64,000 bases of DNA from NCBI RefSeq assembly GCF_000807675.2, contig NZ_CP019962.1, positions 3,817,157 to 3,881,156 of the forward strand, in the 5' to 3' direction. The position numbers and the translations under genes were made by a program. This document shows positions 418-64,000 of this stretch, one piece after another. The notes below the pieces were generated by a model. It saw only the letters and a program-made list of their open reading frames with translations. It did not search any database and was not told the origin of the DNA. Source of the stretch: Eubacterium limosum. Its GTDB lineage: Bacteria; Bacillota; Clostridia; Eubacteriales; Eubacteriaceae. Positions within the stretch are counted from its first letter, which is position 1. Each line of letters begins with the position of its first letter.

Positions 418-1209
418 CTAATCTACCAGGTACTTAGCCTGAGTATAATTGAATACAGGACCATCCAGACAGACATAAACCTCATCAATCCGGCAATGTC
501 CGCACTTTCCTACTGCGCAGGACATACGGCGTTCAAAAGAAAGCCAGATTTTTTCATCCGGTACGCCGTTTTTGCTGCATTCAATACCTGTAAATTTCAT
601 CATTGGTGGCGGACCTACAAGTACGACTTCATAATTATCACCAAATTCTGAAAAAGGCACCTGTGAGACAAATTCTGTTACAAAACCTTTATGCCAACCA
701 TCGATTTTTTCATTGTCAAGGGTATAGAGAGTCGAAAAGGATTGACGCCAGCTTTCTAACTCCTGATGGAAAACAATCCCAGCTTCATTTTTAAAACCGC
801 AGATCAGGTTAACACTCTCAACATAATCTGGATTTTTGGTAAAAAAATGAAGCATACTGCGAACTGGCGCGAGACCAGTACCGCCAGTAATAATGACCAT
901 ATGCTTTCCCCTAAACTGGTCAATCGGCCAGCCATTGCCATAGGCGCCGCGCAGGAACAACTCATCACCAGGCTGTTTTTCGAAAATCTCATCTGTTACC
1001 TTACCAACAGAACGAATTGTAAAATCCAACCAGCCTTCTCCAAATGAGCTCACCGAAATAGGCGCTTCACCAATTTTGGGCAGTGAAAGCTGAAAAAACT
1101 GGCCATGTTTTGGGCGTATATCCGTTTTTACCTTAAATGTATACTCGTGCTGGCTCTCTCTTTTGATATCCATAATTTTACAGGCCTGTGGCTGCATAAT
1201 GTTTGCCAT
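418..1209 (-). CDS. asrB: Anaerobic sulfite reductase subunit B
   Basis: FAD/NAD(P)H-binding electron-transfer subunit of AsrABC, 263 residues, of the ferredoxin-reductase/dihydroorotate-dehydrogenase electron-transfer type. Visible are an FAD-binding beta barrel (about residues 1-95), a nucleotide-binding GGTGLAPVRS motif, and a C-terminal [2Fe-2S] cysteine cluster (SCAVGKCGHC ... VC). I chose the ATG at 1207-1209 because a perfect AGGAGG lies at the end of asrA and the stop of asrA is one base upstream. A longer frame reaching 1326 merely overlaps asrA. It passes electrons from NADH and asrA's clusters to the siroheme subunit. Confidence 0.95.
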   Translation of the reverse strand: MANIMQPQACKIMDIKRESQHEYTFKVKTDIRPKHGQFFQLSLPKIGEAPISVSSFGEGWLDFTIRSVGKVTDEIFEKQPGDELFLRGAYGNGWPIDQFRGKHMVIITGGTGLAPVRSMLHFFTKNPDYVESVNLICGFKNEAGIVFHQELESWRQSFSTLYTLDNEKIDGWHKGFVTEFVSQVPFSEFGDNYEVVLVGPPPMMKFTGIECSKNGVPDEKIWLSFERRMSCAVGKCGHCRIDEVYVCLDGPVFNYTQAKYLVD

Positions 1210-1210
1210 T

Positions 1211-2257
1211 TTAACGTACCTCCTGTGCTTTTGTTTCAGCTTGTATCTCATCAATAGCTTGGGCCATCTTATTAACTGTAGCTGTGATTGAAATAAATTC
1301 TGGACAACGGCTAATACAACGCCCACAGCCTACACACATATGGTAGTCTTTGAACCGTGCCTTATAATCATGGAATTTATGGAGTACCTTATAGCGCATT
1401 CTGTCACCAGCAGTTGGTCTGAAAGACATACCACCAGCCATATCGGTAAATCCGCTGATCTGACAGGACGCAGAAGTACGCTTTCTTTCACCGACATTTG
1501 TATTTTCATTGTAAATGACGTCAGTTGTTGTAAAGCAGGTACAGGTGCTGCATGCTAACGTACAGGCACCGCAGGAGACACATCGCTTATCGAATTCCTT
1601 CCACATGGGGTGAACTTTCAGTTTAGCCAGAACCTCCCGGTCATTAATTTCCGGAACCTCCAATGTCAGATCGTTTTTTTCAATAAATTCAGGTTTAAAA
1701 TCACAGGACGCACAGCCCTCAAAATAAGGAAGCAGCTCAGAATCCTTGATTTCAAGGCTTAAAGTATTCTGCTCCGCGCGAACAGCCGCAGCATAATCAT
1801 CTGTTTTGTTAGTCCCCATACTTACACAGAAACAGGTGTCCCATCCTTCCTTACATTCCATCAAAACAATTTTTACTCTCTCATTCATACGCTTGTAGTA
1901 GCTGTCCTCAAACCCGCCATTTTCCAGGTAGATCTTTTCCTGATGGTACTTTGCATGAACATCACAGGGACGCATGAAAATCAAAAGTTTTTTTGAGGTT
2001 TCCCTGCTTTCCATGAACGCATCCTCCGTAAAATAAAACAGCGATTCGGAAACAGGTGTCAATACCTCCTTGGCCGGGAAATCAGATTTTCCATTAAATT
2101 CAATTTCTTCAACACAGCCTACCTTATCGTAACGGATAATATCCGTATCAGAATATCGTCCTTTTCCGATAAAGCGTTTAGGCGCCCAGATTTCATACTC
2201 CTTTTGCAGTGCATTGAAAATACTGTTTGCCTCAGAAAAACTTAATGCATAACTCAC
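1211..2257 (-). CDS. asrA: Anaerobic sulfite reductase subunit A
   Basis: Ferredoxin-like electron-transfer subunit of AsrABC, 348 residues, the usual family size. Two iron-sulfur motifs are visible: a CVSCGACTLAC stretch near residue 228 followed by extra cysteines (STCTC), and a classic CVGCGRCISRCP near residue 307. The N-terminal half shares the FAD-independent hydrogenase/sulfite-reductase beta-subunit fold. It sits between the YeiH exporter and asrB, with a 42-base gap upstream and translational coupling downstream. Regulation probably comes from the divergent LysR gene at 3474. No anomaly seen. Confidence 0.95.
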   Translation of the reverse strand: MSYALSFSEANSIFNALQKEYEIWAPKRFIGKGRYSDTDIIRYDKVGCVEEIEFNGKSDFPAKEVLTPVSESLFYFTEDAFMESRETSKKLLIFMRPCDVHAKYHQEKIYLENGGFEDSYYKRMNERVKIVLMECKEGWDTCFCVSMGTNKTDDYAAAVRAEQNTLSLEIKDSELLPYFEGCASCDFKPEFIEKNDLTLEVPEINDREVLAKLKVHPMWKEFDKRCVSCGACTLACSTCTCFTTTDVIYNENTNVGERKRTSASCQISGFTDMAGGMSFRPTAGDRMRYKVLHKFHDYKARFKDYHMCVGCGRCISRCPEFISITATVNKMAQAIDEIQAETKAQEVR

Positions 2258-2299
2258 TTTGAAAACCTCCTTGATTCAAAGAAACTTAACCTTAATTTA

Positions 2300-3334
2300 T
2301 TACCATATTCCAAGAAAATGCTGCATTATTAAACTAACAAAAGTAATGCCTATCCAACAGCAAAGCCCCAGAAAAATTGGTTTCACACCTGTTTTCACCA
2401 ACTTAATGATATTGGTGTTCAAGCCAATGGCTGCCATGGCAAAAACAATAAAAAATTTACTCAGCTCTTTAAGCGGCGTGAAGAATTCTATGGGAACATG
2501 GAAGAAGGAGGTCATTACGGTTGTAATGACCGAGGCCAGAATGAAGAACAGAATAAAAAACGGAAAGACTTGTTTAAAGCTTACCTTACCGCCCTCGGCT
2601 TCCTCCTCCTTCCGTGTTCTCCAGAAAGCCAGTACCAGTGTAATCGGAATAATGGCCAGGGTTCTTGTCAGCTTCACCGTAACGGCTTTGTCGAGCGTCG
2701 CTGTTCCCAAATGATACATACTGTCCCATGTTGCAGCCGCTGCAGTAACGGACGAAGTGTCATTAATGGCTGTACCGGCGAACACACCAAAGGCTCCACC
2801 ATCAGTGGTTGAAAAGCCAAGCATGGTGCCAAAGGCCGGAAACAAAACCGCTGCCAGTACATTAAACAGAAAAATAACTGAAATGGCCTGCGCCACTTCC
2901 TCATCACTGGCCTCAATAACCGGGGCAGTCGCAGCAATGGCTGACCCGCCGCAGATTGAGGAGCCAACTCCCACCAGTGTGGAGATATTCCCCGGAATCT
3001 TCAACGCTTTGTGCAGAACAAAAGCAAGGATCAGAGAAGTCGAGATCGTCGCAATAATAATGGGCAGAGACTGCCGTCCCGTTTCAAGAACAACCGAAAG
3101 ATTTAAACCAAAACCAAGCAGGATAACCGCATATTGCAAAATCTTTTTTGAGACAAAAGTGATGCCCTCCTGTAAAGGCTCTTTATTTTTTAGTAAGAGT
3201 GTGATCACCATTCCTGCCAGAATCGCAATGACGGGGCCGCCAATAACGGGAACCGCCTGTCCTGCAAACCATGCTGGTATTGCGATAACGAGGCAGAGCA
3301 GGATACCTTTCCAGCTTCTTGTGATAAAATTCAT
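2300..3334 (-). CDS. YeiH/UPF0324 family membrane protein, putative sulfite/sulfate exporter
   Basis: Polytopic inner-membrane protein of 344 residues with about ten hydrophobic segments and the family's [18 protein letters not shown] signature (residues about 122-140). The family is annotated as a putative sulfate or sulfite exporter; in enterobacteria it neighbours the LysR regulator YeiE. Here it is the first gene of an operon with asrABC and is divergent from a LysR gene, which makes sulfite (or another sulfur oxyanion) the likely substrate; that is inference. The ATG follows a GAGG ribosome site. Transport direction cannot be read from sequence. Confidence 0.85.
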
Positions 3335-3369
3335 ATGTCTTTTCCTCTTTCGTAAATATGTTTTATGCT

Positions 3370-3412
3370 ATGATAGAAGGATATCACGTCTTATCAATAA
3401 TGAAAAATTATT
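3370..3412. promoter_or_regulatory. Divergent yeiH-asr / lysR control region
   Basis: On the minus strand TTGATA (3392-3397) and TATCAT (3370-3375) with a 16-base spacer form a good sigma-A promoter for yeiH-asrABC. A dyad, AATAAT-GAAAA-ATTATT (3396-3412), begins at the edge of the -35 box and has the T-N11-A character of LysR operators. The placement fits autoregulation of the LysR gene and control of the operon. The promoter call is moderate; the operator is a candidate only. Confidence 0.5.
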
Positions 3413-3473
3413 TATCTTTATACTGCCATAAAAATATGTTATAGTTAAACAAAAGTACAAGAAAGAGGCCGAA

Positions 3474-4385
3474 ATGTTAGATTTTAGAATCAATACCTTT
3501 TTAACAGTTTGTCAATACATGAATTATACCCGTGCCGCAGAAGCACTTAGCATAACACAACCTGCTGTTTCACAGCATATTCATTTCATCGAGGAGGATT
3601 ACGGCATTCGTCTTTTTGAATTTCATGGCAAAAAAATGGAACTGACACCTGAGGGTACTGCCCTGCTCCACACCGCTTCTGCCATGAAGCATGATGATCT
3701 GATTTTGAGAGAACATTTGAAAAACAGCCGTCTGCATATTCGATCATTAAATTTTGGAGCAACTCTTACCATTGGTGAATTCGTGGTAAGCGGTATCCTA
3801 TCACGTTGTCTGGAGCAGTATCCCAAAGCCAAAATACGTGTTTCGGTCGATAATACCCAGTCACTGCTCAAGCAGCTGGACAACAATGATCTTGATTTTG
3901 CTCTCATCGAAGGCTATTTTCCCAAAGAAAATTATGACTATGCGGTCTACTCGACCGAGCGTTTTATTGCCGTCCAAAGCGCAGACGCTGAGGCACTGCC
4001 AGCCCAATGCCCCATTGAAGCCTTATTTTTAAAACCGCTGCTAGTGCGGGAGCCTGGCTCTGGCAGCCGTAATATCCTTGAACAATACCTGAAACTGAAT
4101 AATTATGCTATTACAGATTTTTCAAAAGTTATAGAGGTTAATAATGTCAATGCTTTAAAAGAAATGGCCGAAAAAAACTGCGGAGTCACCTTTTTGTACG
4201 AAGTGGCTGCTGGCCGGGAATTGGCAGGCAAAACGCTAAGGGAAATCCCTATCCAGGGGTTTGATATCACCCATGATTTTGCATTCATCTGGAAAAAGGG
4301 CAGCATTTTCTCTAAAAATTACCGCGCATTATCTGCTTTTATGTCTGGAAAAAACGAACGGATCGTTTTGGACCAAAGGCTTTGA
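3474..4385 (+). CDS. LysR-family transcriptional regulator of the sulfite operon
   Basis: 303-residue LysR regulator: winged helix-turn-helix at residues 1-60 (NYTRAAEALSITQPAVSQHI) and a type-2 periplasmic-binding-like effector domain from about 88 onward. It is divergent from yeiH-asrABC with a 139-base shared control region, the standard LysR arrangement. YeiE of enterobacteria, beside yeiH, is reported to sense sulfite, so a sulfite-type effector is a reasonable inference. The ATG at 3474 follows a GAAAGAGG ribosome site. Confidence 0.9.
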   Translation: MLDFRINTFLTVCQYMNYTRAAEALSITQPAVSQHIHFIEEDYGIRLFEFHGKKMELTPEGTALLHTASAMKHDDLILREHLKNSRLHIRSLNFGATLTIGEFVVSGILSRCLEQYPKAKIRVSVDNTQSLLKQLDNNDLDFALIEGYFPKENYDYAVYSTERFIAVQSADAEALPAQCPIEALFLKPLLVREPGSGSRNILEQYLKLNNYAITDFSKVIEVNNVNALKEMAEKNCGVTFLYEVAAGRELAGKTLREIPIQGFDITHDFAFIWKKGSIFSKNYRALSAFMSGKNERIVLDQRL

Positions 4386-4464
4386 TTCTGTTGTTTTCTC
4401 TGTTTAAAGGGTAGATATAGAGTTGTAAGCTTACCTAACCCTATATAATAAATGGAGGATTTCT

Positions 4465-4665
4465 ATGAAAATTATTATTCAATGCAGTGTCTGCGGAAAC
4501 AAAGTCGAAATTGATAAAAAGCCAAACAGCGTGGTAGATTTTAAAAAAATTCTTAATGAACACAAATTTTCCATTGACGAGACAACCATCGAAAATAATG
4601 CACTCAAGTCTATAATAATTCAGTGTAAAAACTGTAATAAGGACCATATCGAATTAACCTTTTAA
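4465..4665 (+). CDS. Small zinc-ribbon-like protein, unknown function
   Basis: 66-residue protein with two CxxC knuckles, CSVCGN near residue 11 and CKNCNK near residue 55, separated by a beta/charged spacer. This is the geometry of a treble-clef or zinc-ribbon metal site. No recognised family. It has a good GGAGG ribosome site 10 bases before ATG and its own bidirectional terminator. It is convergent with the LytS-type kinase gene and follows the LysR gene by 79 bases, so it could be expressed by read-through or from its own promoter. Function unknown; a metal-binding adaptor or nucleic-acid binder are guesses. Confidence 0.75.
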   Translation: MKIIIQCSVCGNKVEIDKKPNSVVDFKKILNEHKFSIDETTIENNALKSIIIQCKNCNKDHIELTF

Positions 4666-4712
4666 CAAAAATATGGCAGTAAGCTCTTTTTAAACTTACT
4701 GCCATATTTTTA
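4666..4712. terminator. Bidirectional rho-independent terminator
   Basis: A 16-base perfect inverted repeat (AAAATATGGCAGTAAG and its complement) with an 11-base loop and T-runs on both sides. It ends the small zinc-ribbon gene on the plus strand and overlaps the stop of the histidine kinase on the minus strand. Confidence 0.85.
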
Positions 4713-5996
4713 TTTAGTTTTAGGAATCGTAACAACTGATATAGTTCCCTTTCCGGGCTGGCTCTCAATCTTCAACGTTCCAGCGCATTGGGCTGCAAGA
4801 CGAAAACGCACATTTTCAATACCAACATGCTGTCGTTCATCTGGAAGAAGTGCCGTTATATCAAATCCGACCCCGTCGTCTGATACTTTAATGGTATAGT
4901 TTTCGGCCGTTTCCATTGTTTCAAGACAGATAGTGCCGCCGTTTTCTTTTTTGCAGATTCCGTGTTTAACTGCATTTTCAATTAATGGCTGTATCGTCAG
5001 AGAAGGCAGCATAAAATCTGTTGTACCAATTGAGTAAACGATCTGTATGTTTTCTTCAAACCTCATTTTTTCTAACGAAAGATAGGTCTTGATATGCCTC
5101 AGTTCTCTATCAAAATGTACCATGCCTTTCTGCGTAAGAGAGTCCAAGTTCCCTCTCAGATAATTTGCAAATGCAATGGTCGCTTCGCCAGCTTTATCAG
5201 GTGTTTCCTTGCACATTTGAGCGATGGAAGTAAGTGAATTATAGAGGAAGTGGGGCTGTATCTGGCTCAACATCATCGCAATACGATTTTGGGTAAGCTC
5301 CAGTTCCTTTTCACGAAGCCGCTTGCTCTGCTCTACCTGAATATTGACATAAATGATCAAAAGAGAAACCGTAGTAGCTGGATAAGCCAGTGCAAGGCCA
5401 TTTATAAAAATCTGTACAGCAATGGCTCCAGCTGGTAAAATGCCATAGGATAAAAGCGCAAAAGTATCCTTTATGCCAAGCTTTCTGCTATGCTTGAGGA
5501 TGATTACCATGTCCAGCAAGATTATGATAATAGGGTATACCAGGCTGATCCAATGCAGCGGGCTCCGCATAAAATAACCCTTTTCGCTAAAATAAAAAAA
5601 CATATTATTAAACATTGAAATGATTACCAGCAGAACAGCCACACCACAAAGAGCAGTGATTGCCGGAACGATCTTGTCAGATACAATACTTCCCTTTCCG
5701 CGTATGTAGGTGACCATATATGCGGTAAACAGTGCTACAAGAAGATATCCTAAATTAAACACAAAAAAGTTTGCCACTTTCATCGCACATACAAGCTGTG
5801 GATGGCCGCCAGCAACCCAAATAAAAATATCACAGCCCAAAATAAAAGCATTTACGGCCAGCATCCACAAAAAAAGGCGGTTGAGTTTTGTATGCTCCCT
5901 GCTTGCAATAATACAGATTATCAGTAAAATTGAAATAACAATACTAAGGCTTTCAAGTGGAATATTTGTCGCCATCAACAGTCTTCTTCGTTCCAT
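4710..5996 (-). CDS. LytS/YehU-type sensor histidine kinase, orphan
   Basis: 428-residue membrane sensor kinase. The first ~220 residues form six or seven hydrophobic segments; then a coiled stretch leads into a His_kinase domain (PF06580 type) with QIQPHFLYNSL, His near residue 248, and a HATPase domain with N-box LIENAVKHG and DDGVGFD. LytS-type kinases normally pair with an adjacent LytTR response regulator, but none is here. It lies 37 bases behind the FUSC-HAD fusion gene on the same strand and is probably cotranscribed, hinting that kinase and membrane fusion respond to one stimulus. The ATG has an AAGGA site. Confidence 0.85.
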   Translation of the reverse strand: MERRRLLMATNIPLESLSIVISILLIICIIASREHTKLNRLFLWMLAVNAFILGCDIFIWVAGGHPQLVCAMKVANFFVFNLGYLLVALFTAYMVTYIRGKGSIVSDKIVPAITALCGVAVLLVIISMFNNMFFYFSEKGYFMRSPLHWISLVYPIIIILLDMVIILKHSRKLGIKDTFALLSYGILPAGAIAVQIFINGLALAYPATTVSLLIIYVNIQVEQSKRLREKELELTQNRIAMMLSQIQPHFLYNSLTSIAQMCKETPDKAGEATIAFANYLRGNLDSLTQKGMVHFDRELRHIKTYLSLEKMRFEENIQIVYSIGTTDFMLPSLTIQPLIENAVKHGICKKENGGTICLETMETAENYTIKVSDDGVGFDITALLPDERQHVGIENVRFRLAAQCAGTLKIESQPGKGTISVVTIPKTK

Positions 5997-6033
5997 TTAA
6001 CATTCCTTCCCTGTTTATACTGCCGGAATTGGG

Positions 6034-7359
6034 CTAAATACCCTTTTTACGGTAAAATTTTTTTTCCATCATTTTCACGACTGCGTCACTGTCGTTATTG
6101 CTGATGGTCTGGGTCGCAGCCTCCTTTAACGCACGCGCTGCATTATCCACCGCATATGCGCGATTGACGAGCTTAAAAATCGGCACGTTCAGACTTGAAC
6201 TGCCAAAGGCTACAATCTGATCCACCGACAAATCTTTTTTCATTTTAAGGATCGCGTTCTCCCTTGTAGCCTCAGCACTGTAAATATCCATAACCGTGTA
6301 ACCCTCTGCGTCATGGCTGGGTGTATTTATAATCTCGATACGGTTGCCAATTTCCAAGGCTTCAATCTTTTTCCGGATTCGATTGTTCACAGATGCTTCA
6401 TTGACCGAGGTAATGTTTACAGCCTGCTGATCCTCTGGCAAGCCGCCAAAAACATAATTTTTATGGCTTGTACGGCGCAGCCGGTGATAAAAACGTTCTT
6501 CAGCCGTATTTTTAAAATCGCCGTAATAAATGTGCATGGTCTCGTTAATGATAGCGTGCACAAAACAGTTGCGGCCCTCCTCCTCAAAGACGCTCTCGAT
6601 TGCATCACTCACCTCGCGATCCATTGGCAGTGAAAAAGAGTAAGAACGATCCTGAACGTCATAGAGTACAGCGCCATTCATCGCGATTACGGGCAGATTC
6701 AGGTTTAGATTTTCAAGAATAGGCACAAGTGTGGCTGGTGTACGGTCTGTAACAATCGTAAACCACTCTCCGTCATCAATCATGCGGTTGATATGAAATT
6801 CTGCATATGAGCTTATTTTTCCATCAGAATGCAGCAGAGTATTGTCAAGCTCTGAAACAAAAAGGACACTCCGGTTACGGTGTACCGGCAGATGAAATGC
6901 ATTAACTGCCAGAGCAACCAGGATGCCGATCAGTGTATCAATCATGCGATAAGAGGCAATGATATAAGGCGCGGTACCCGGTGTTGCGGCAATGGTTGTC
7001 CCAAGAAACACGATGCAGGTAAAAGCAGAAGCTGACGAATGATTGATGACCAGCGTCACATAGATCAGTGGAATCATGCACAATGAAACAATGATAAACT
7101 GTACCGTGGGCCACGGTACATAGCTCCGCATAAACATAAGCACAAGCATACCTGCAAGACCGCCGATCAATGTTCCCACGATTCGGTTAATGGCAATCTC
7201 TTTGGTATTTGACAAATATGGCTGCATGCAAAGTACCGCCGTAATGGTTGAATATATCGGCACACTCTCAGGTCTTATAAAGGTAATAAGCAGACAGATA
7301 AAAACTGCTACCGCTGTTTTTACCATTCGCATTCCTACTTTTGGAAATTTATACTTCAT
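6034..7359 (-). CDS. FUSC/ArAE-type membrane domain fused to a degenerate Cof-type HAD domain
   Basis: 441 residues. Residues 1-155 hold five or six membrane segments of the aromatic-acid-exporter (FUSC/ArAE_1) type, including NRIVGTLIGGLAG and RMIDTLIGILVAL. Residues 165-425 form a HAD domain of the Cof/class-IIB layout. Its catalytic motifs are damaged: motif I reads SELDNTLL with Glu170 where the Asp nucleophile belongs, motif III lacks the usual lysine context (TRENAI), and motif IV is GSSSLN (386-391) rather than GDxxND. The domain is therefore probably a non-catalytic sensor or structural module. It precedes the orphan LytS-type kinase in one transcription unit. Confidence 0.8.
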   Translation of the reverse strand: MKYKFPKVGMRMVKTAVAVFICLLITFIRPESVPIYSTITAVLCMQPYLSNTKEIAINRIVGTLIGGLAGMLVLMFMRSYVPWPTVQFIIVSLCMIPLIYVTLVINHSSASAFTCIVFLGTTIAATPGTAPYIIASYRMIDTLIGILVALAVNAFHLPVHRNRSVLFVSELDNTLLHSDGKISSYAEFHINRMIDDGEWFTIVTDRTPATLVPILENLNLNLPVIAMNGAVLYDVQDRSYSFSLPMDREVSDAIESVFEEEGRNCFVHAIINETMHIYYGDFKNTAEERFYHRLRRTSHKNYVFGGLPEDQQAVNITSVNEASVNNRIRKKIEALEIGNRIEIINTPSHDAEGYTVMDIYSAEATRENAILKMKKDLSVDQIVAFGSSSLNVPIFKLVNRAYAVDNAARALKEAATQTISNNDSDAVVKMMEKKFYRKKGI

Positions 7360-7388
7360 TTGTGGGCTCCCTTAACAATGATGAGAAC

Positions 7389-7417
7389 AGCATACGGCAT
7401 TTTGAAGCTCATGTCAA
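7389..7417 (-). promoter_or_regulatory. Promoter of the FUSC-HAD / kinase operon
   Basis: Minus-strand TTGACA (7412-7417) and TATGCT (7389-7394) separated by 17 bases, just upstream of the fusion gene start at 7359. It is a near-consensus sigma-A promoter by inspection. Confidence 0.6.
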
Positions 7418-7431
7418 GTCTGCTGTCAACC

Positions 7432-7464
7432 TAAAAAAGTACCGGCAGACAAACCCGGTACTTT
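7432..7464 (-). terminator. Terminator after the flavodoxin pair
   Basis: Inverted repeat AAAGTACCG/CGGTACTTT with an 11-base loop, followed by TTTTTT on the minus strand, directly downstream of the gene ending at 7473. Confidence 0.75.
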
Positions 7465-7472
7465 AGGATATT

Positions 7473-8099
7473 TTACTTTTTGTAAAGCTCTTTTTTCTTC
7501 AACCCATTTTTTTTAGCTTCTGTAACCCACTGATGGTTTGCAGCGGCCATATATATTTTTCTCGGAATCTTTGGGGTGATCAACAGGTCATTTTCCAGAG
7601 CCTGTCCGTTTTTAATGGCATTCGAAAGCTGAACCAGCCCTTCATAAACCGGACGTTTGGCAGAAAATTTCCACGAGATATTCGCCATACCATGAAGAAA
7701 AGGCCCTCCGCCAATCCCCAGGCCACCGCCCCAGGTTAGCTTTGCCCTGCGGCAAAAATGTGATAAAATCTCAAGCGCGTAACGATTCTGATGTCCTTCC
7801 AAAAATCCAGCATTCACGATGCCATATACGCAGATATCTGCCGGAGAAGCCTTAAGCTTTTCCTCAAAGTGTATTAAAAGACGCAAAAAGCTTGCTGGCA
7901 GACTGTCCACATACAGGGGAAACGCAAAGACCAGTGCGTCACTGCTGCAGAGATCATCGAAAAAATCATCATCCCACAGAGACATGGATAAAATTTCCGG
8001 ATCAGCCTCTGTTTTGACAAGCGGCATCAGCTCATTCAGAATGTAATTCGAAAAGCTGCCACGCTTTTTAGGGCTGGCATTTATCAGTGTTATTTTCAT
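7473..8099 (-). CDS. Flavodoxin-fold NAD(P)H:FMN oxidoreductase-like protein
   Basis: 208-residue flavodoxin-fold protein starting with a typical beta1-loop for FMN phosphate (INASPKKRGSFSNYI) and an FPLYVDSLPASF segment seen in NADPH-dependent FMN reductases. The C-terminus is basic. Substrate unknown. It overlaps the preceding flavodoxin-family gene by four bases (ATGA), so the two are translationally coupled. The pair belongs to a minus-strand group with another flavodoxin and a MarR regulator, suggesting stress-linked redox chemistry. Confidence 0.75.
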   Translation of the reverse strand: MKITLINASPKKRGSFSNYILNELMPLVKTEADPEILSMSLWDDDFFDDLCSSDALVFAFPLYVDSLPASFLRLLIHFEEKLKASPADICVYGIVNAGFLEGHQNRYALEILSHFCRRAKLTWGGGLGIGGGPFLHGMANISWKFSAKRPVYEGLVQLSNAIKNGQALENDLLITPKIPRKIYMAAANHQWVTEAKKNGLKKKELYKK

Positions 8100-58992: not shown

Positions 58993-59361
58993 CTATAATT
59001 TTTCCTTTAACCGGTCAACGGCTTCTTCCCGTGTTGCCACGAAAAAGAAATCTCTGCCATGGTTACTTTCATAAATAAAATCTTTCAAAGGCTTACTCGT
59101 ATATTTTGAGTAATCGCCAAATATCGCTGCTTTGATATGATAATTAATAAATTTCTGAAGGATCTCACCGGCAATTCCTGTACTCAGTATAAAAAATTCT
59201 TCTGAAACAGCATCTTTATCAATCGCAATTCTGTCCGCACCGGTTTCGTATTGTACCGTCATGATTAAATCAAGTGCGGAGTTCGTATCTACAATGATCC
59301 TCTCTTCACTGGAAACAACTGCAATATTCGCTTCATCTGTCATAATCTTTTCAATTTTCAT
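58993..59361 (-). CDS. DUF4180 domain protein
   Basis: 122 residues of DUF4180: DTNSALDLIMTVQYETGADRIAID and AAIFGDYSKYTSKPLKDFIYESN with the closing NHGRDFFFVATREEAVDRL. Alpha/beta, soluble, reminiscent of STAS/SpoIIAA folds; function unknown. ATG at 59359-59361 has AGGAGG. Two promoters lie upstream, one sigma-A consensus and one with a 19-base spacer. Confidence 0.85.
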   Translation of the reverse strand: MKIEKIMTDEANIAVVSSEERIIVDTNSALDLIMTVQYETGADRIAIDKDAVSEEFFILSTGIAGEILQKFINYHIKAAIFGDYSKYTSKPLKDFIYESNHGRDFFFVATREEAVDRLKEKL

Positions 59362-59411
59362 AAATTTCCTCCTAAAACTAAATTTGCAGTACAAATTCCA
59401 GCTAGCTAGAG

Positions 59412-59440
59412 AGTATACTATGATTTTTCGTTTTTGTCAA
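59412..59440 (-). promoter_or_regulatory. Proximal promoter of DUF4180-ferredoxin
   Basis: TTGACA (59435-59440), 17-base spacer, TATACT (59412-59417) on the minus strand, about 50 bases before the DUF4180 start. Confidence 0.75.
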
Positions 59441-59593: not shown

Positions 59594-61522
59594 CTAACGG
59601 ATCTTATCCAGAAGCATATTGTACTGGCGGTTTTCTGCATTGATTCCCAGTGATTTGATGCCTCCCTGCACACCAGTGTTCTTTTTGATCATCGACTCGA
59701 TATAATCGGAGTGCTGAGGCCCTGTTCGGAATATTTCCTCTGCACGGTGGTCTTCATCAATGCGGAAGCAGGACATAGTGCGGATAGTATGGTGGTCCTC
59801 CCCACGGACCGTAACACGGCCGCCTGGGCCATCAAAAAACACATTTCCGCTCTCAAGTGCTGAGATAACCGCTTCGGTTTCTGTTGTCCCGGCCATCTCC
59901 ACAGCCCGTTTATACAGGTACATGGCCGTATAGGCGGTTTCGGTATCCATGTTCATGTATGGTACATTCTGATGGTTGTAGACAGAGCGGAATTTCTTTA
60001 CATACTGCTGCGCTTTTGGGGTTTTTAATTCTTCAATGAACGATGCCATCACGTACATATTCTCAAGGACTGGCGCTTTCAGTTCAACATTCAATGGGTA
60101 CTCTGCGGCGACCTGTGTGGTTGCGTTGGGAATATAATTCAGTCCGCGCTCATGCCATTGGAGATAAAAACGATCCTGGTTGGGGTAAACGCACATAGAA
60201 AACAGAACATCGGTCTGTACCTGGAGAATACGATCAATGACTGATGTAAAATCCATCATTTTTTCATCGAGATATTCGATACCAACAACCTCTCCCCCCA
60301 GTTTGGGCACAAGGTATTTCACCCACTCAGCAGATAAAATACCATAATTATAATCTGCTGCCACAATATAGCATTTTGAACCATACTTTTTAAACAGGTA
60401 AGTCAGCATTTTTTCCATTTGCTGCTCCGGCATGGCCGATAAGCAGAAAACATAGTGCCCTGAAACACCACCCTCGGTCTGCTGGGTATTGAGATAGAGC
60501 GTCTTTGTCTGCTGAGCACAGCGCTGCATGATATCTCGTGAGGGAGACAGTGTTGACCCCATCAGTACATCCACATGCTTCTGTTGAGTGAGCTCGAGAG
60601 CCGCCCTGTTTGTCAGGTCAGACTGAGAACGGTCGTCACGAATCAATAATTGAATCTGTTTTCCATCGATGCCGCCTGCCTCATTAATCTCCTTTACTGC
60701 CAGCTGATAGGCCGCCTGCTTGCTCCGTTCTTCCTTTGAGGCGATGCCTGTCAAATCTCCGATAATGCCAATTTTAACCACAGGGCTGTCCTGTCCGATT
60801 TTTATATCCAGGTAAGTCATTTCTTCTGGAAAACAAATGGTCACCTCACAGCCCTTTTCAGGCTGTCCTATAATCGACGCCTTTCCATGAAACCGCTCTG
60901 CAATCCTGCGAACAGTCGCCAGACCGATACCATTTCCCTCGTAGGTTTCATTGCTCTCAAGCCGTTCAAATGCTTCAAAGACGCGATCCGCATAGTTCAT
61001 ATCAAAACCAATGCCGTTATCACGAAAATGAAACGCCACACCGCCATCACGTACTGTGGCAAAAACCCTGATCTGCGCTTTTGTTCTGTTTCTTGTAAAC
61101 TTAATACTATTTGAAAGAATATTCACGATCATCAGCTTGATCAGAAACAGATCGCCTGTAATCTCCGGCAAATCTTCCATACTTAGGATAACCTTCCGTT
61201 CCGGCTCTGCCCGCATCAATTCCTCAAAACACTGGCGGATGAGCAGTTGTGTATTAATGCGTATCCGATCAATATTTTTAAGATCGGCTTTAGAGTACTC
61301 CATCAGTCGTTTCACCATATCAGTCATTCCCTCACAGGTTCTGCGAATGGCATGAAGGTCCTCAATGGACTGCGGCGCAAGCCGGTCTCTGTTATCTTCT
61401 TCAATAAACTCAGCATATAGGCTGATTTCGCGGGCTGGTGTTTTCAACTCGTGGGCAACGGTATAGATAAAAGAATTGAGCTGCTCAGCCGTTTTTTCTT
61501 CCATTTGTTTTTTATCTTCCAT
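59594..61522 (-). CDS. Soluble histidine kinase fused to a urea/amide-type periplasmic-binding-protein domain
   Basis: 642 residues. HisKA at 10-80 with VAHELKTPAREISLY (phospho-His about 24) and HATPase at about 115-235 (NILSNSIKFTRN, DNGIGFD, GNGIGLATVRR). From about 247 a type-1 periplasmic-binding fold runs to the end: VVKIGIIGDLTG, KYGSKCYIVAADYNYG, MDFTSVIDRIL and EDHHTIRTMSCFRID match Peripla_BP_5 proteins (UrtA/AmiC/FmdD type). No signal or membrane helix separates the parts, so both should be cytoplasmic. ATG at 61520-61522 is chosen for GGAG nine bases upstream. No response regulator is adjacent. Confidence 0.85.
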   Translation of the reverse strand: MEDKKQMEEKTAEQLNSFIYTVAHELKTPAREISLYAEFIEEDNRDRLAPQSIEDLHAIRRTCEGMTDMVKRLMEYSKADLKNIDRIRINTQLLIRQCFEELMRAEPERKVILSMEDLPEITGDLFLIKLMIVNILSNSIKFTRNRTKAQIRVFATVRDGGVAFHFRDNGIGFDMNYADRVFEAFERLESNETYEGNGIGLATVRRIAERFHGKASIIGQPEKGCEVTICFPEEMTYLDIKIGQDSPVVKIGIIGDLTGIASKEERSKQAAYQLAVKEINEAGGIDGKQIQLLIRDDRSQSDLTNRAALELTQQKHVDVLMGSTLSPSRDIMQRCAQQTKTLYLNTQQTEGGVSGHYVFCLSAMPEQQMEKMLTYLFKKYGSKCYIVAADYNYGILSAEWVKYLVPKLGGEVVGIEYLDEKMMDFTSVIDRILQVQTDVLFSMCVYPNQDRFYLQWHERGLNYIPNATTQVAAEYPLNVELKAPVLENMYVMASFIEELKTPKAQQYVKKFRSVYNHQNVPYMNMDTETAYTAMYLYKRAVEMAGTTETEAVISALESGNVFFDGPGGRVTVRGEDHHTIRTMSCFRIDEDHRAEEIFRTGPQHSDYIESMIKKNTGVQGGIKSLGINAENRQYNMLLDKIR

Positions 61523-61577
61523 GGCTTGTATCTCCATATACTTTGTTAATTGCACAAACAAACCGACCAAATACAAA

Positions 61578-61605
61578 CAAAAAAATGCCGGCTCAACACC
61601 GGCAC
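61578..61605 (-). terminator. Terminator of the glycerate kinase gene
   Basis: GTGCCGG-TGTTGA-GCCGGCA then seven T on the minus strand, about 70 bases past the stop at 61674 and just before the kinase-fusion gene. Confidence 0.8.
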
Positions 61606-61673
61606 TGCTTTTTCAGGCTGTTAAGTCCTGATGATACTGTATCACGCTTCATGCTTCCAGGCAACAGCTTATC

Positions 61674-62909
61674 TTAACGTTTTACCAAAACCATTGCAAC
61701 ATCATTGACATTCGTACCTGTCGCCCCGGTCATCACTAAGCTTCCACAAGCCTTAAGGGCGTTATAAGCATCGTTCTCCTGAAGGGTATCGAATATCGAA
61801 ATTCCCAATTCGGATAACGCTGATTTTGTGTTTTCATCCACAAATCCACCTGCGGCATCTGTCGGCCCATCTGTACCGTCAGAGCCGACGCTGAAAACAG
61901 CCGTATCAAGACAATCTGAAATCTTATCAGCTGCCGCCAGAGCAATCTCCTGGTTGCGACCTCCTTTTCCTTTACCTGTCAGTCGGACAACAGTCTCTCC
62001 ACCAACGATCCAGGCACAGCTTTTTGTTGTCTCCTGGTGTGTCAGGGCAATATCCCCCAGCAGTGTTCCAGCTTCCCGCGCAACGCAATCGAGATGATCT
62101 GTTAAAAGCTCTGTTTTATAGCCGAGCTCTTCTGCAGCATTTCTGGCCGCTGTACAGAGTTCACGCACACTTCCGGTTATCACTGTCTCAACATTGTCAA
62201 GCTGCTTTGGTGTCTCCCGTTCCAAAGCATCCCATGCAGCTGATGAAAGCTTCAGCCCATACTTCCGTGCTACGTGCTTAGCGTCATCGGCTGTTGAGGA
62301 ATCCGGGTAAGCTGGTCCGCTGGCAATCATATCCAGCGGATCACCCACAATATCACTCAGAACAATACAGTATACCTGGGCAGGCTTACAGGCGAGGGCG
62401 AATCGCCCGCCTTTCACCCTGCTCATACGCTTGCGAAGCGTGTTCATCTCAACGATGTCCGCACCACTGGCCAGCAGCTGTTCTGTCAAATCAGCCAGTT
62501 CTCTTCCTGGAATCACTGGATCCTCGAACAATGCCGATCCACCTCCTGAGAGTAAAAACAGTACGGTGTCCTCCTGACTTAAGCCCTTAACCAGCTCAAG
62601 GGCTGCCTGTGTGCCTTTAAAAGAATTCTCATCCGGGACAGGATGTCCCGCCTCAATGCAGGTATAATCGGCGACAGGGCCTTTATTATAGCCGTATTTT
62701 GTCACAATTACGCCAGCCTCAATGCGTTTTCCTAACACCTTATCTGCTGCCTGCGCCATTTGCCAAGCCGCCTTACCTACCGCTACCAACCGCACCCGGC
62801 CATTTCCAAAATTTTTATTTTCAAGAGCCCTTTTGACTGCTTCATCCGGCAAAACGGCGTCAATTGATTTTTTTATAATATAATCTGCGTCTTCTCTGAT
62901 ACTTGGCAT
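61674..62909 (-). CDS. Glycerate 2-kinase (GckA / MOFRL family)
   Basis: 411 residues converting D-glycerate to 2-phosphoglycerate. The DUF4147 N-terminal domain has VAVGKAAWQMAQAA, EAGHPVPDENS and LLSGGGSALF; the MOFRL C-terminal domain has GGETVVRLTGKGKGGRNQEIAL and SVGSDGTDGPTDAAGG. I prefer the ATG at 62907-62909 (GAGG nine bases upstream) over one seven codons earlier without a site. Clusters with a C69 peptidase upstream; possible cotranscription. Confidence 0.9.
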   Translation of the reverse strand: MPSIREDADYIIKKSIDAVLPDEAVKRALENKNFGNGRVRLVAVGKAAWQMAQAADKVLGKRIEAGVIVTKYGYNKGPVADYTCIEAGHPVPDENSFKGTQAALELVKGLSQEDTVLFLLSGGGSALFEDPVIPGRELADLTEQLLASGADIVEMNTLRKRMSRVKGGRFALACKPAQVYCIVLSDIVGDPLDMIASGPAYPDSSTADDAKHVARKYGLKLSSAAWDALERETPKQLDNVETVITGSVRELCTAARNAAEELGYKTELLTDHLDCVAREAGTLLGDIALTHQETTKSCAWIVGGETVVRLTGKGKGGRNQEIALAAADKISDCLDTAVFSVGSDGTDGPTDAAGGFVDENTKSALSELGISIFDTLQENDAYNALKACGSLVMTGATGTNVNDVAMVLVKR

Positions 62910-62990
62910 TTTCTTAACCTCTGTTTTCATTTTGGATATTTCCGGATCGCTATGCTTATCCTGCTATTCCACAGATCTTAGAATCTGTTT

Positions 62991-64000
62991 TTAAACGCGG
63001 AACATCTTTTTAGCACGCTCAATAGCTGCCTGCGCTTCCGCAACACATTTTTCGGTATAAGCATAAAGCATATCTGCCGCTTCCTGCACTTTTCCATCAT
63101 TTTTCAATGCCGCCGCTCTCATCTCAACAGCATCGACCTCGGTCAGCCATTTACTTTCCAGTTCATCAAATAAGCTTCTTACAATCATATGGCGCTGTTC
63201 GTAGGTTTCTCCATCTGCGTCACCGTTGATTTCATCCAGCAGTGAACGCATATCCCACCAGAATGAACCTTCCTTATGGGTGTCTTCACGGTCGACATCT
63301 GACGGTGCACACATGGTTTTTCCAAAGGTTCCTGCCTTCTGTAAATATTCCGGCAAGCCTCTGGCGTCAATAAACAATGGGATATAAATGCTGCAGCATG
63401 GAACCACTGGCGCCCACCACATAACAGGCAGCTTCTTGCCATCATCGGGTAAAACCGCTACCATCGAGGAGGCAGTATTCCCCCAGGTGAATCCTGCCGG
63501 AGAATCGTGCATACAGATCGTAAGAAAATCCGGTGACGACGCATTGAAATATGGCCCTTCTAAAAAGGTGTCCTCATAGTGGTCGCGCAGAATACGTTTC
63601 ATATCTGTAACACCAATTTTTTCATCACGGCCTGCTGCCTGTGAAAGTAATTGCCGGGCACGCTGAACGCGGATATGAGAAAGCTGGCGTGGGTTGTTCT
63701 GATTGATATATGCCTTTGCAAAATCAAAAGCATCTCGTTTTTCCTCTGGCCACCAGCCCTTTTCAATCGCGTGGTCAATAAGATCACTGCAGCCGCTTGT
63801 CATATCTGTGCGAATACTGACCTCATTTGAAATGGCAGCATAGCCTTTTTCAATTTTACGTACAGCCCAACGGTTACCAGCGGTTTCAAGAATGTAGGCC
63901 TCTTTTTTATCTGCGATAATATAAGAATTATTGTAAGAGCCCGAAACCGTGTCCGACATCGGCACGCCAGAGCCCCACTGCCCGTACGCTTCAACCAGTT
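62991..64000 (-). CDS. C69-family dipeptidase, C-terminal part (cut by window edge)
   Basis: The frame is open from the right edge (reading LVEAYGQWGSGVPMSDT at the edge) to the stop at 62991, 336 codons visible. The sequence matches secernin-like/C69 (PepD-type) Ntn-hydrolases: SYIIADKKEAYILETAGNRWAV, AISNEVSIR and CMHDSPAGFTWGNTASSMVAVLP. The N-terminal nucleophile Cys lies outside the window, so activity cannot be judged. A 24-residue acidic/basic helical tail ends at KKMFRV. Confidence 0.85.
   Translation of the reverse strand, partial: LVEAYGQWGSGVPMSDTVSGSYNNSYIIADKKEAYILETAGNRWAVRKIEKGYAAISNEVSIRTDMTSGCSDLIDHAIEKGWWPEEKRDAFDFAKAYINQNNPRQLSHIRVQRARQLLSQAAGRDEKIGVTDMKRILRDHYEDTFLEGPYFNASSPDFLTICMHDSPAGFTWGNTASSMVAVLPDDGKKLPVMWWAPVVPCCSIYIPLFIDARGLPEYLQKAGTFGKTMCAPSDVDREDTHKEGSFWWDMRSLLDEINGDADGETYEQRHMIVRSLFDELESKWLTEVDAVEMRAAALKNDGKVQEAADMLYAYTEKCVAEAQAAIERAKKMFRV

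Follow-up and report, generated by a model that had tools for sequence, protein, structure and literature searches.

Near the end of a 64,000-nucleotide stretch of Eubacterium limosum DNA (the window; contig NZ_CP019962.1, with positions counted from its first letter) lies a minus-strand gene whose product, here called the kinase-sensor, begins as a histidine kinase and ends as a substrate-binding-type domain of the flytrap kind. It is the last of a block of four minus-strand genes, in the order REC-AraC regulator, C69-type hydrolase, glycerate-kinase-type enzyme and kinase-sensor, and the same order and strand recur in four of four genomes. The features of this region are the following:

64627-65676 (the position that it would have, wholly past the window end; L141:9783-10832), minus strand: REC-AraC response regulator of 349 residues, first gene of the block and probable partner of the kinase-sensor (domain search)
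62991..64000, minus strand, running past the window end to what would be 64409: C69-type hydrolase/dipeptidase, block gene (above the Pfam cut-off, below the NCBIfam cut-off)
61674..62930, minus strand: glycerate 2-kinase type enzyme (DUF4147 and MOFRL), block gene (above the Pfam cut-offs, below the NCBIfam equivalog cut-offs)
61584..61606, minus strand: terminator-like hairpin and T run between the glycerate-kinase-type and kinase-sensor genes (largely kept in four genomes, by eye)
61532..61535, minus strand: GGAG ribosome-binding site (kept in four genomes)
59594..61522, minus strand: kinase-sensor gene, soluble histidine kinase with a C-terminal substrate-binding-type sensor domain, 642 residues (open reading frame and Pfam)
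61283..61480, minus strand: HisKA, residues 15-80, with phosphoacceptor His24 (Pfam and motif positions)
60821..61144, minus strand: HATPase_c, residues 127-234, with N138, D168 and G196 (Pfam and motif positions)
59729..60778, minus strand: Peripla_BP_6/5 sensor domain, residues 249-598, placed on the FmdD side of the AmiC/UrtA/FmdD superfamily (Pfam, alignments and tree)
59597..59716, minus strand: conserved 40-residue C-terminal tail, residues 603-642 (90-100% identity between pairs of the four genomes)
L141:10917-11005, L142:11115-11203, L143:10517-10605 and L144:14328-14416: tRNA-Ser (cga) near the regulator

The kinase-sensor frame is exact, running from an ATG at 61522 to a stop at 59594-59596 as one intact frame of 642 residues. 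All three of the domains that the earlier note had proposed scored above their curated Pfam cut-offs: HisKA over residues 15-80 (E 2.4e-8, 34.3 bits against a cut-off of 26.9), HATPase_c over 127-234 (E 2.1e-20, 73.7 bits against 26.4) and Peripla_BP_5 over 249-598 (E 1.3e-56, 192.7 bits against 27). Peripla_BP_6 did better than Peripla_BP_5 (residues 249-591, E 4.3e-68, 230.9 bits against 31.7), and both of these models were covered nearly in full. The kinase half has the histidine kinase boxes H24, N138, D168 and G196, which we take to be the phosphoacceptor, the N-box, G1 and G2, respectively. Judged by its HisKA and HATPase_c scores and by its H, N, D and G boxes, this half is predicted to be a HisKA-type histidine kinase; its solved matches in a PDB sequence search include 8f71, the 2c2a/3dge group and bacteriophytochromes. 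The other half is predicted to adopt the Peripla_BP_5/6 ligand-binding fold. Only 14 residues stand ahead of the HisKA match, and the linker between HATPase_c and the flytrap is about as short (some 14 residues, 235-248). Full-length copies occur in four of the five Eubacterium genomes, at 100% identity in the genome itself and at 95, 92 and 90% in the others, the best named match being Eubacterium callanderi strain FD (95%); the genome without a copy, G004, is 80% complete and 2.2 Mb in size. Hence the kinase-first, single-polypeptide fusion that had been proposed is borne out by the intact frame, the Pfam domains and these copies.

The same note had stated that no partner regulator lay nearby, which proved to be an effect of the window edge: a conserved REC-AraC regulator stands in the same block just past that edge, 3.1 kb upstream of the kinase-sensor with two enzyme genes between. 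It consists of a REC domain (residues 4-115) and an AraC-type HTH (266-344), with D8/D9, D57 and K107 in place. A search for it in 40 genomes of the family, in which at most 52 candidates per genome were scored, gave five matches at E 1e-30 or better, namely the same four Eubacterium genomes (76-100%) and one other at 29%, and this last match lies among molybdopterin, NMT1-type and ABC transport genes. In the genome G003 the four-gene block is kept though both of its flanks differ. Downstream, the 20-kb stretch of G003 yielded none of the riboflavin, cupin and DUF4180 genes that follow elsewhere and has a MoxR-type AAA gene in their place; upstream, its regulator is separated from tRNA-Ser by a glyoxalase gene, an HbpS-like gene and an ABC-2 transporter. 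The conserved block itself has no transporter gene. Within the 20-kb stretch there is one further kinase, a neighbouring membrane kinase of 479 residues, and it directly adjoins an OmpR-type regulator. With a complete REC domain (D, D, K), a DNA-binding domain and a conserved linkage, the kinase-sensor and the REC-AraC regulator would by sequence criteria constitute a two-component system.

Several further features of the surroundings can be recorded. The tRNA-Ser (cga) gene adjoins the regulator upstream in G000-G002 and is separated from it by about 3.7 kb of other genes in G003, so that the tRNA could be the site of an insertion. A near-consensus promoter, TTGACA-17-TATACT, stands at 59440-59412 ahead of the DUF4180 gene (58993-59440) that follows the kinase-sensor; as the G003 stretch yielded no such gene, it is probably not a part of the block. 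Just beyond the end of the window, the four genomes strongly conserve the 3' part of the spacer between regulator and C69-type gene (L141:9566-9782), a candidate promoter/operator for the AraC-type regulator. An 8-mer common to the upstream regions of the C69-type and kinase-sensor genes was discarded as uninformative, with about 0.3 chance matches expected by a rough estimate.

The affinities of the sensor half can be described more closely. Its best solved relatives by sequence are 8tg1, UrtA (7s6e, 8hic and 7s6f) and AmiC (1qnl and 1pea). Among NCBIfam models the best is TIGR03669, an archaeal urea-binder model, which gives 292 bits where the cut-off is 494.8, and TIGR03407 gives 164.6 bits against 492.75; by these scores the sensor would be a relative, not a member, of the UrtA urea-binder models. 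When the whole protein was compared with plasmids by tblastn, there were at least 5000 matching records; among the 5000 listed none had a single match spanning 80% of the protein, and those ranked highest were free binders of up to 36.6% identity. Two of these plasmid relatives were inspected, one from Klebsiella (36.6%) and one from Paraburkholderia (33.0%), and the operon of each also encodes two permeases, two ATPases, an acetamidase/formamidase, an ANTAR protein and a second binder. We take this layout to be that of an amide-uptake operon and assume the name FmdD for its binder. A tree of 34 sensor domains, whose root is arbitrary and whose program warned of long rows, including two of the six intracellular ones discussed below (L109 and L136), grouped the four Eubacterium sensors with 12 FmdD-side rows (support 84/74, not starred) and apart from a joint group of UrtA and AmiC-like rows (98/92), the Eubacterium branch being long (2.11). 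With moderate support, then, the sensor appears nearest to the FmdD-type amide-binding branch. The proposed affiliation to a UrtA/AmiC-like Peripla_BP_5 group is thus sound at the level of the AmiC/UrtA/FmdD superfamily and needs amendment within it, in favour of Peripla_BP_6 and the FmdD side.

For Prochlorococcus UrtA (PDB 8HIC), the structural report names nine pocket residues, W120, S122, Y141, Q144, E146, Y190, F192, N246 and S274, and gives S122, Q144, Y190 and N246 as the residues that hydrogen-bond urea (PMC10392092). Set against these, the aligned Eubacterium sensor keeps S122 (S326), Q144 (Q348), E146 (E350) and Y190 (Y391), whereas W120, Y141 and N246 are replaced by T324, N345 and V445, and F192 is Y393; outside the nine named, Y145 is T349, and the place of S274 differs between alignments and is not surely assignable. 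Three of the four hydrogen-bond residues listed there are thus kept, with V445 at the place of N246. The four Eubacterium proteins agree with one another at every pocket position compared. The six UrtA-like rows have W, Y and N at the W120, Y141 and N246 positions; in the 11 FmdD-side rows the first is F, Y or once I, the second Y (11/11) and the third V (11/11); AmiC also has V at the N246 position. The resemblance to FmdD-type binders of short-chain amides resides in the identity of the best-ranked plasmid match, the moderately supported tree grouping and this valine. These binders are, in contrast, free proteins of ABC transporter operons with Y at the Y141 position, and the Eubacterium sensor has N345 there, no export signal and no ABC transporter operon. 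Of the proposed amide/urea type, urea is unlikely as the ligand, given the substitutions at W120, Y141 and N246, and an amide-like ligand is plausible. The pocket lacks aromatics seen in the aligned amide-side and urea binders, so that the amide reading is weak; as a tentative suggestion, the ligand might be some small metabolite of the cell interior that ends in a carboxamide-like group and probably exceeds formamide and urea in size or polarity.

To see how rare the kinase-first order is, one must survey many genomes, and the sets used here are samples, some overlapping, in which a few candidates per genome were scored and distant copies can be missed. Of 40 genomes of the family four had a sensor match at E 1e-20, all of them Eubacterium. 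Of 391 genomes of the class four had one at 1e-25, the three matches besides the protein itself being free frames of 418-434 residues, and 121 of 398 genomes of the phylum had a match at 1e-15, of which those listed were looked at (four candidates scored per genome in both searches). With six candidates scored per genome, a Pfam search found Peripla_BP_5 matches in 113 of 291 genomes of the class, and a sensor match at 1e-20 was found in 84 of 299 genomes of the phylum of a Pseudomonas abyssi locus; seven of 148 genomes of the phylum of a Methanoregulaceae locus had one at 1e-15. A scan of contigs, by a method that finds close relatives only, gave 46 related loci, among which only that of E. 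callanderi covers the whole protein.

In the Pseudomonas abyssi phylum 19 of the listed matches lie in frames of at least 900 residues; seven were fetched (L123-L125 and L133-L136; the other 12 were left out) and all seven have the sensor first. Seven of the 12 listed frames of 500-900 residues (L126-L132, the other five being left out) gave nothing at 1e-5 when compared by blastp with the kinase half. Judged by eye, L126-L130 are exported binders whose frames read in from far upstream, L131 and L132 start with a membrane or lipoprotein leader, and none of them was retained as a fusion; G632:C12 (L108), G022 (L139), G563 (L140) and G1190 (L137) look like ordinary exported binders and were likewise rejected. 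The survey extended to the listed phylum and class Pfam matches, without the rows beyond them and without G608 (510 residues, phylum search). A domain scan of six proteins, five of the seven and one from a Pseudanabaena genome, found the sensor (SBP) first in all:

L124: SBP-PAS-HisKA-HATPase-REC-Hpt
L136: SBP-PAS-HisKA-HATPase-REC
L133 and L134: SBP-PAS-GGDEF-EAL
L135: SBP-PAS-GGDEF-EAL with BLUF
L109: SBP-PAS-PAS-cyclase, ending at the end of the locus

None of the six has a signal-peptide-like start, and the starred branches of the sensor tree indicate at least two origins for them. Flytrap domains inside the cell are thus a known kind in sequence space, and of all the frames inspected only those of Eubacterium put the kinase first. 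A literature search at the level of titles and the opening lines of abstracts brought up, among the papers listed, no kinase-first fusion of this kind. Like the Eubacterium protein, the six carry a Peripla_BP_5/6 domain in a signalling protein that has no signal-peptide-like start and no strong membrane segment. They differ from it in that their sensors stand ahead of PAS and then of REC/Hpt, c-di-GMP or cyclase modules, whereas the Eubacterium protein is kinase first and minimal, without PAS or REC; their sensors also occupy other branches of the tree, with L109 and L136 as long rows of unsure place. With five cysteines, the sensor domain of the kinase-sensor resembles the six intracellular fused relatives, which have 5-8 (counted over their first 370 residues), more than 14 free relatives, which have 0-4.

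Three other architectures were met in passing. A frame of 1520 residues in a deltaproteobacterial MAG (L101 and L106; G809:C168, about 3646-7980) has UrtA-like domains at both ends; what separates them looks by eye like repeats, membrane segments and a P-loop NTPase. The BLUF-containing protein (L135:1176-4532) brings together an intracellular flytrap and a blue-light domain, two inputs to one c-di-GMP enzyme. At L124 there are two PAS-HisKA-HATPase-REC-Hpt hybrid kinases (4072-6261 and 818-4075), whose genes overlap by four bases and of which only the second has an intracellular flytrap.

Before a function can be considered, two more trivial explanations of the protein must be weighed. It might be a sequencing or assembly artefact in which a kinase gene and a binding-protein gene were joined, but the chance of this is negligible: nothing was found in its favour, the orthologues already refute it, and the junction is intact in all four genomes, which also disposes of the frameshift or missing base that the earlier note had named as a refutation. 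The dN/dS values (NG86, six pairs; rough, as some dS values exceed 1) are 0.085-0.127 for the kinase half (residues 1-240) and 0.010-0.052 for the sensor half (247-602); purifying selection acts on both halves and more strongly on the sensor half, and the least conserved part of the protein is residues 236-250 (50-75% identical in the four genomes). It might also be supposed that the C-terminal part is exported or tethered to the membrane, as free relatives of the sensor bear signal peptides or lipoprotein leaders (five inspected by eye). This seems to us scarcely credible, because the kinase-sensor has no signal peptide and no membrane-like segment in its 642 residues, between the domains or elsewhere. 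Averaged over 19 residues, its Kyte-Doolittle hydropathy peaks at 1.52, beside and within the HATPase domain, and on the same scale the neighbouring membrane kinase, as a control, reaches 2.64. An in-frame stop lies two codons 5' of the ATG in G002 and G003, and the GGAG ahead of the ATG is kept in all four genomes; there is thus no leader frame upstream in those two genomes, and the start is fixed there at 61522. With these stops and the hydropathy, a hidden leader or membrane segment was rejected, in agreement with the absence of both that had been noted at the outset.

The alternatives that concern function are less easily dismissed. The kinase-sensor could be intracellular and have its partner elsewhere in the genome, the REC-AraC regulator being a syntenic passenger or answering another kinase; we regard this as unlikely, yet a genuine contender. 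The genome has 68 REC matches, and the regulator lies 3.1 kb off behind two enzyme genes. With the hairpin at 61584-61606 between the genes, the kinase-sensor gene may be transcribed from a promoter of its own, and not necessarily together with the regulator. The usual partners of AraC-type regulators are membrane kinases of the YesM type. The kinase-sensor is of another type, and the pairing draws on four related genomes only, both of which would speak against it. For the pairing there are the persistence of the four genes together in G003 when both flanks change, the presence of the regulator in the same four of 40 genomes, and the possession by the only other kinase of the 20-kb stretch of an adjoining OmpR-type regulator of its own. 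It is also conceivable, if rather improbable, that the flytrap no longer senses a ligand and serves as a scaffold or dimerisation module, or that it holds a regulator by contact in the manner of AmiC, with kinase activity unchanged. The replacement of UrtA W120, Y141 and Y145 by T, N and T would suit such a loss of sensing, and contact control has a precedent: AmiR of the Pseudomonas amidase operon, a pseudo-REC with an ANTAR output, is controlled through direct contact with AmiC (PMC8934654). Both systems combine an amide-type flytrap with a REC-type regulator, and V445 matches the pocket valine of AmiC. AmiC, however, is without a kinase, whereas the Eubacterium sensor has one built in and is no stand-alone flytrap beside an ANTAR regulator; its neighbour is a REC-AraC protein with a complete REC domain that retains the phosphoacceptor, in contrast to the pseudo-REC of AmiR. 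The stronger conservation of the sensor half and the identity of the compared pocket positions in all four genomes argue further against a flytrap that has ceased to sense.

The reading that we prefer, with a rough probability of 0.6, is a soluble intracellular sensor kinase that carries its flytrap behind the catalytic domain and is paired with the REC-AraC regulator of the block. In histidine kinases as a rule, the sensor lies ahead of the HisKA helices and the signal is passed through those helices. Bacteriophytochrome-like kinases have their sensors in front of HisKA as well, and the kinase half is 28-34% identical to the 17 kinase rows aligned with it. In the Eubacterium protein the sensor comes after the catalytic domain and only 14 residues precede HisKA, so a route along an N-terminal coiled coil is closed to the signal. 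The P5 domain of CheA is a precedent for C-terminal control, and control from that side would be more likely here than N-terminal coiled-coil signalling. In the mechanism that we propose, a ligand would close the flytrap, thereby changing the freedom of the adjacent ATP-binding domain and altering autophosphorylation at His24; the phosphate would pass to D57 of the REC-AraC regulator, as synteny and co-occurrence suggest; and the phosphorylated regulator would control the block, that is, the C69-type hydrolase, the glycerate-kinase-type enzyme and the kinase-sensor itself. Judging from the enzymes encoded in the block, the signal may arise in peptide/amide or glycerate metabolism.

Most likely, as far as sequence can indicate, the locus encodes an intracellular two-component system of unusual geometry. 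The suggestion of a one-piece intracellular ligand-to-phosphate switch would accordingly hold for the intracellular device, which is the best reading, and not for its being in one piece, as the protein is better read as the sensor half of a pair. The proposed survey of the architecture across genomes set this kinase-first arrangement, seen only in Eubacterium, against sensor-first relatives elsewhere. It is possible, though we are inclined to doubt it, that the protein is a separate evolutionary invention, an intracellular flytrap kinase whose sensor steers the ATP-binding domain from the C-terminal side and does not drive the HisKA helices. If that were true, it would represent a new signalling geometry for histidine kinases, in which the signal is a metabolite from within the cell and the output is a regulator that governs a hydrolase/glycerate-kinase module. 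A soluble kinase with a flytrap behind its catalytic domain offers a compact and testable case of control from the other end, since small size and solubility seem to be shared by sensor, kinase and likely partner regulator. It is also a further sign that, on more than one occasion, flytrap binders were brought inside cells and became parts of signalling proteins.
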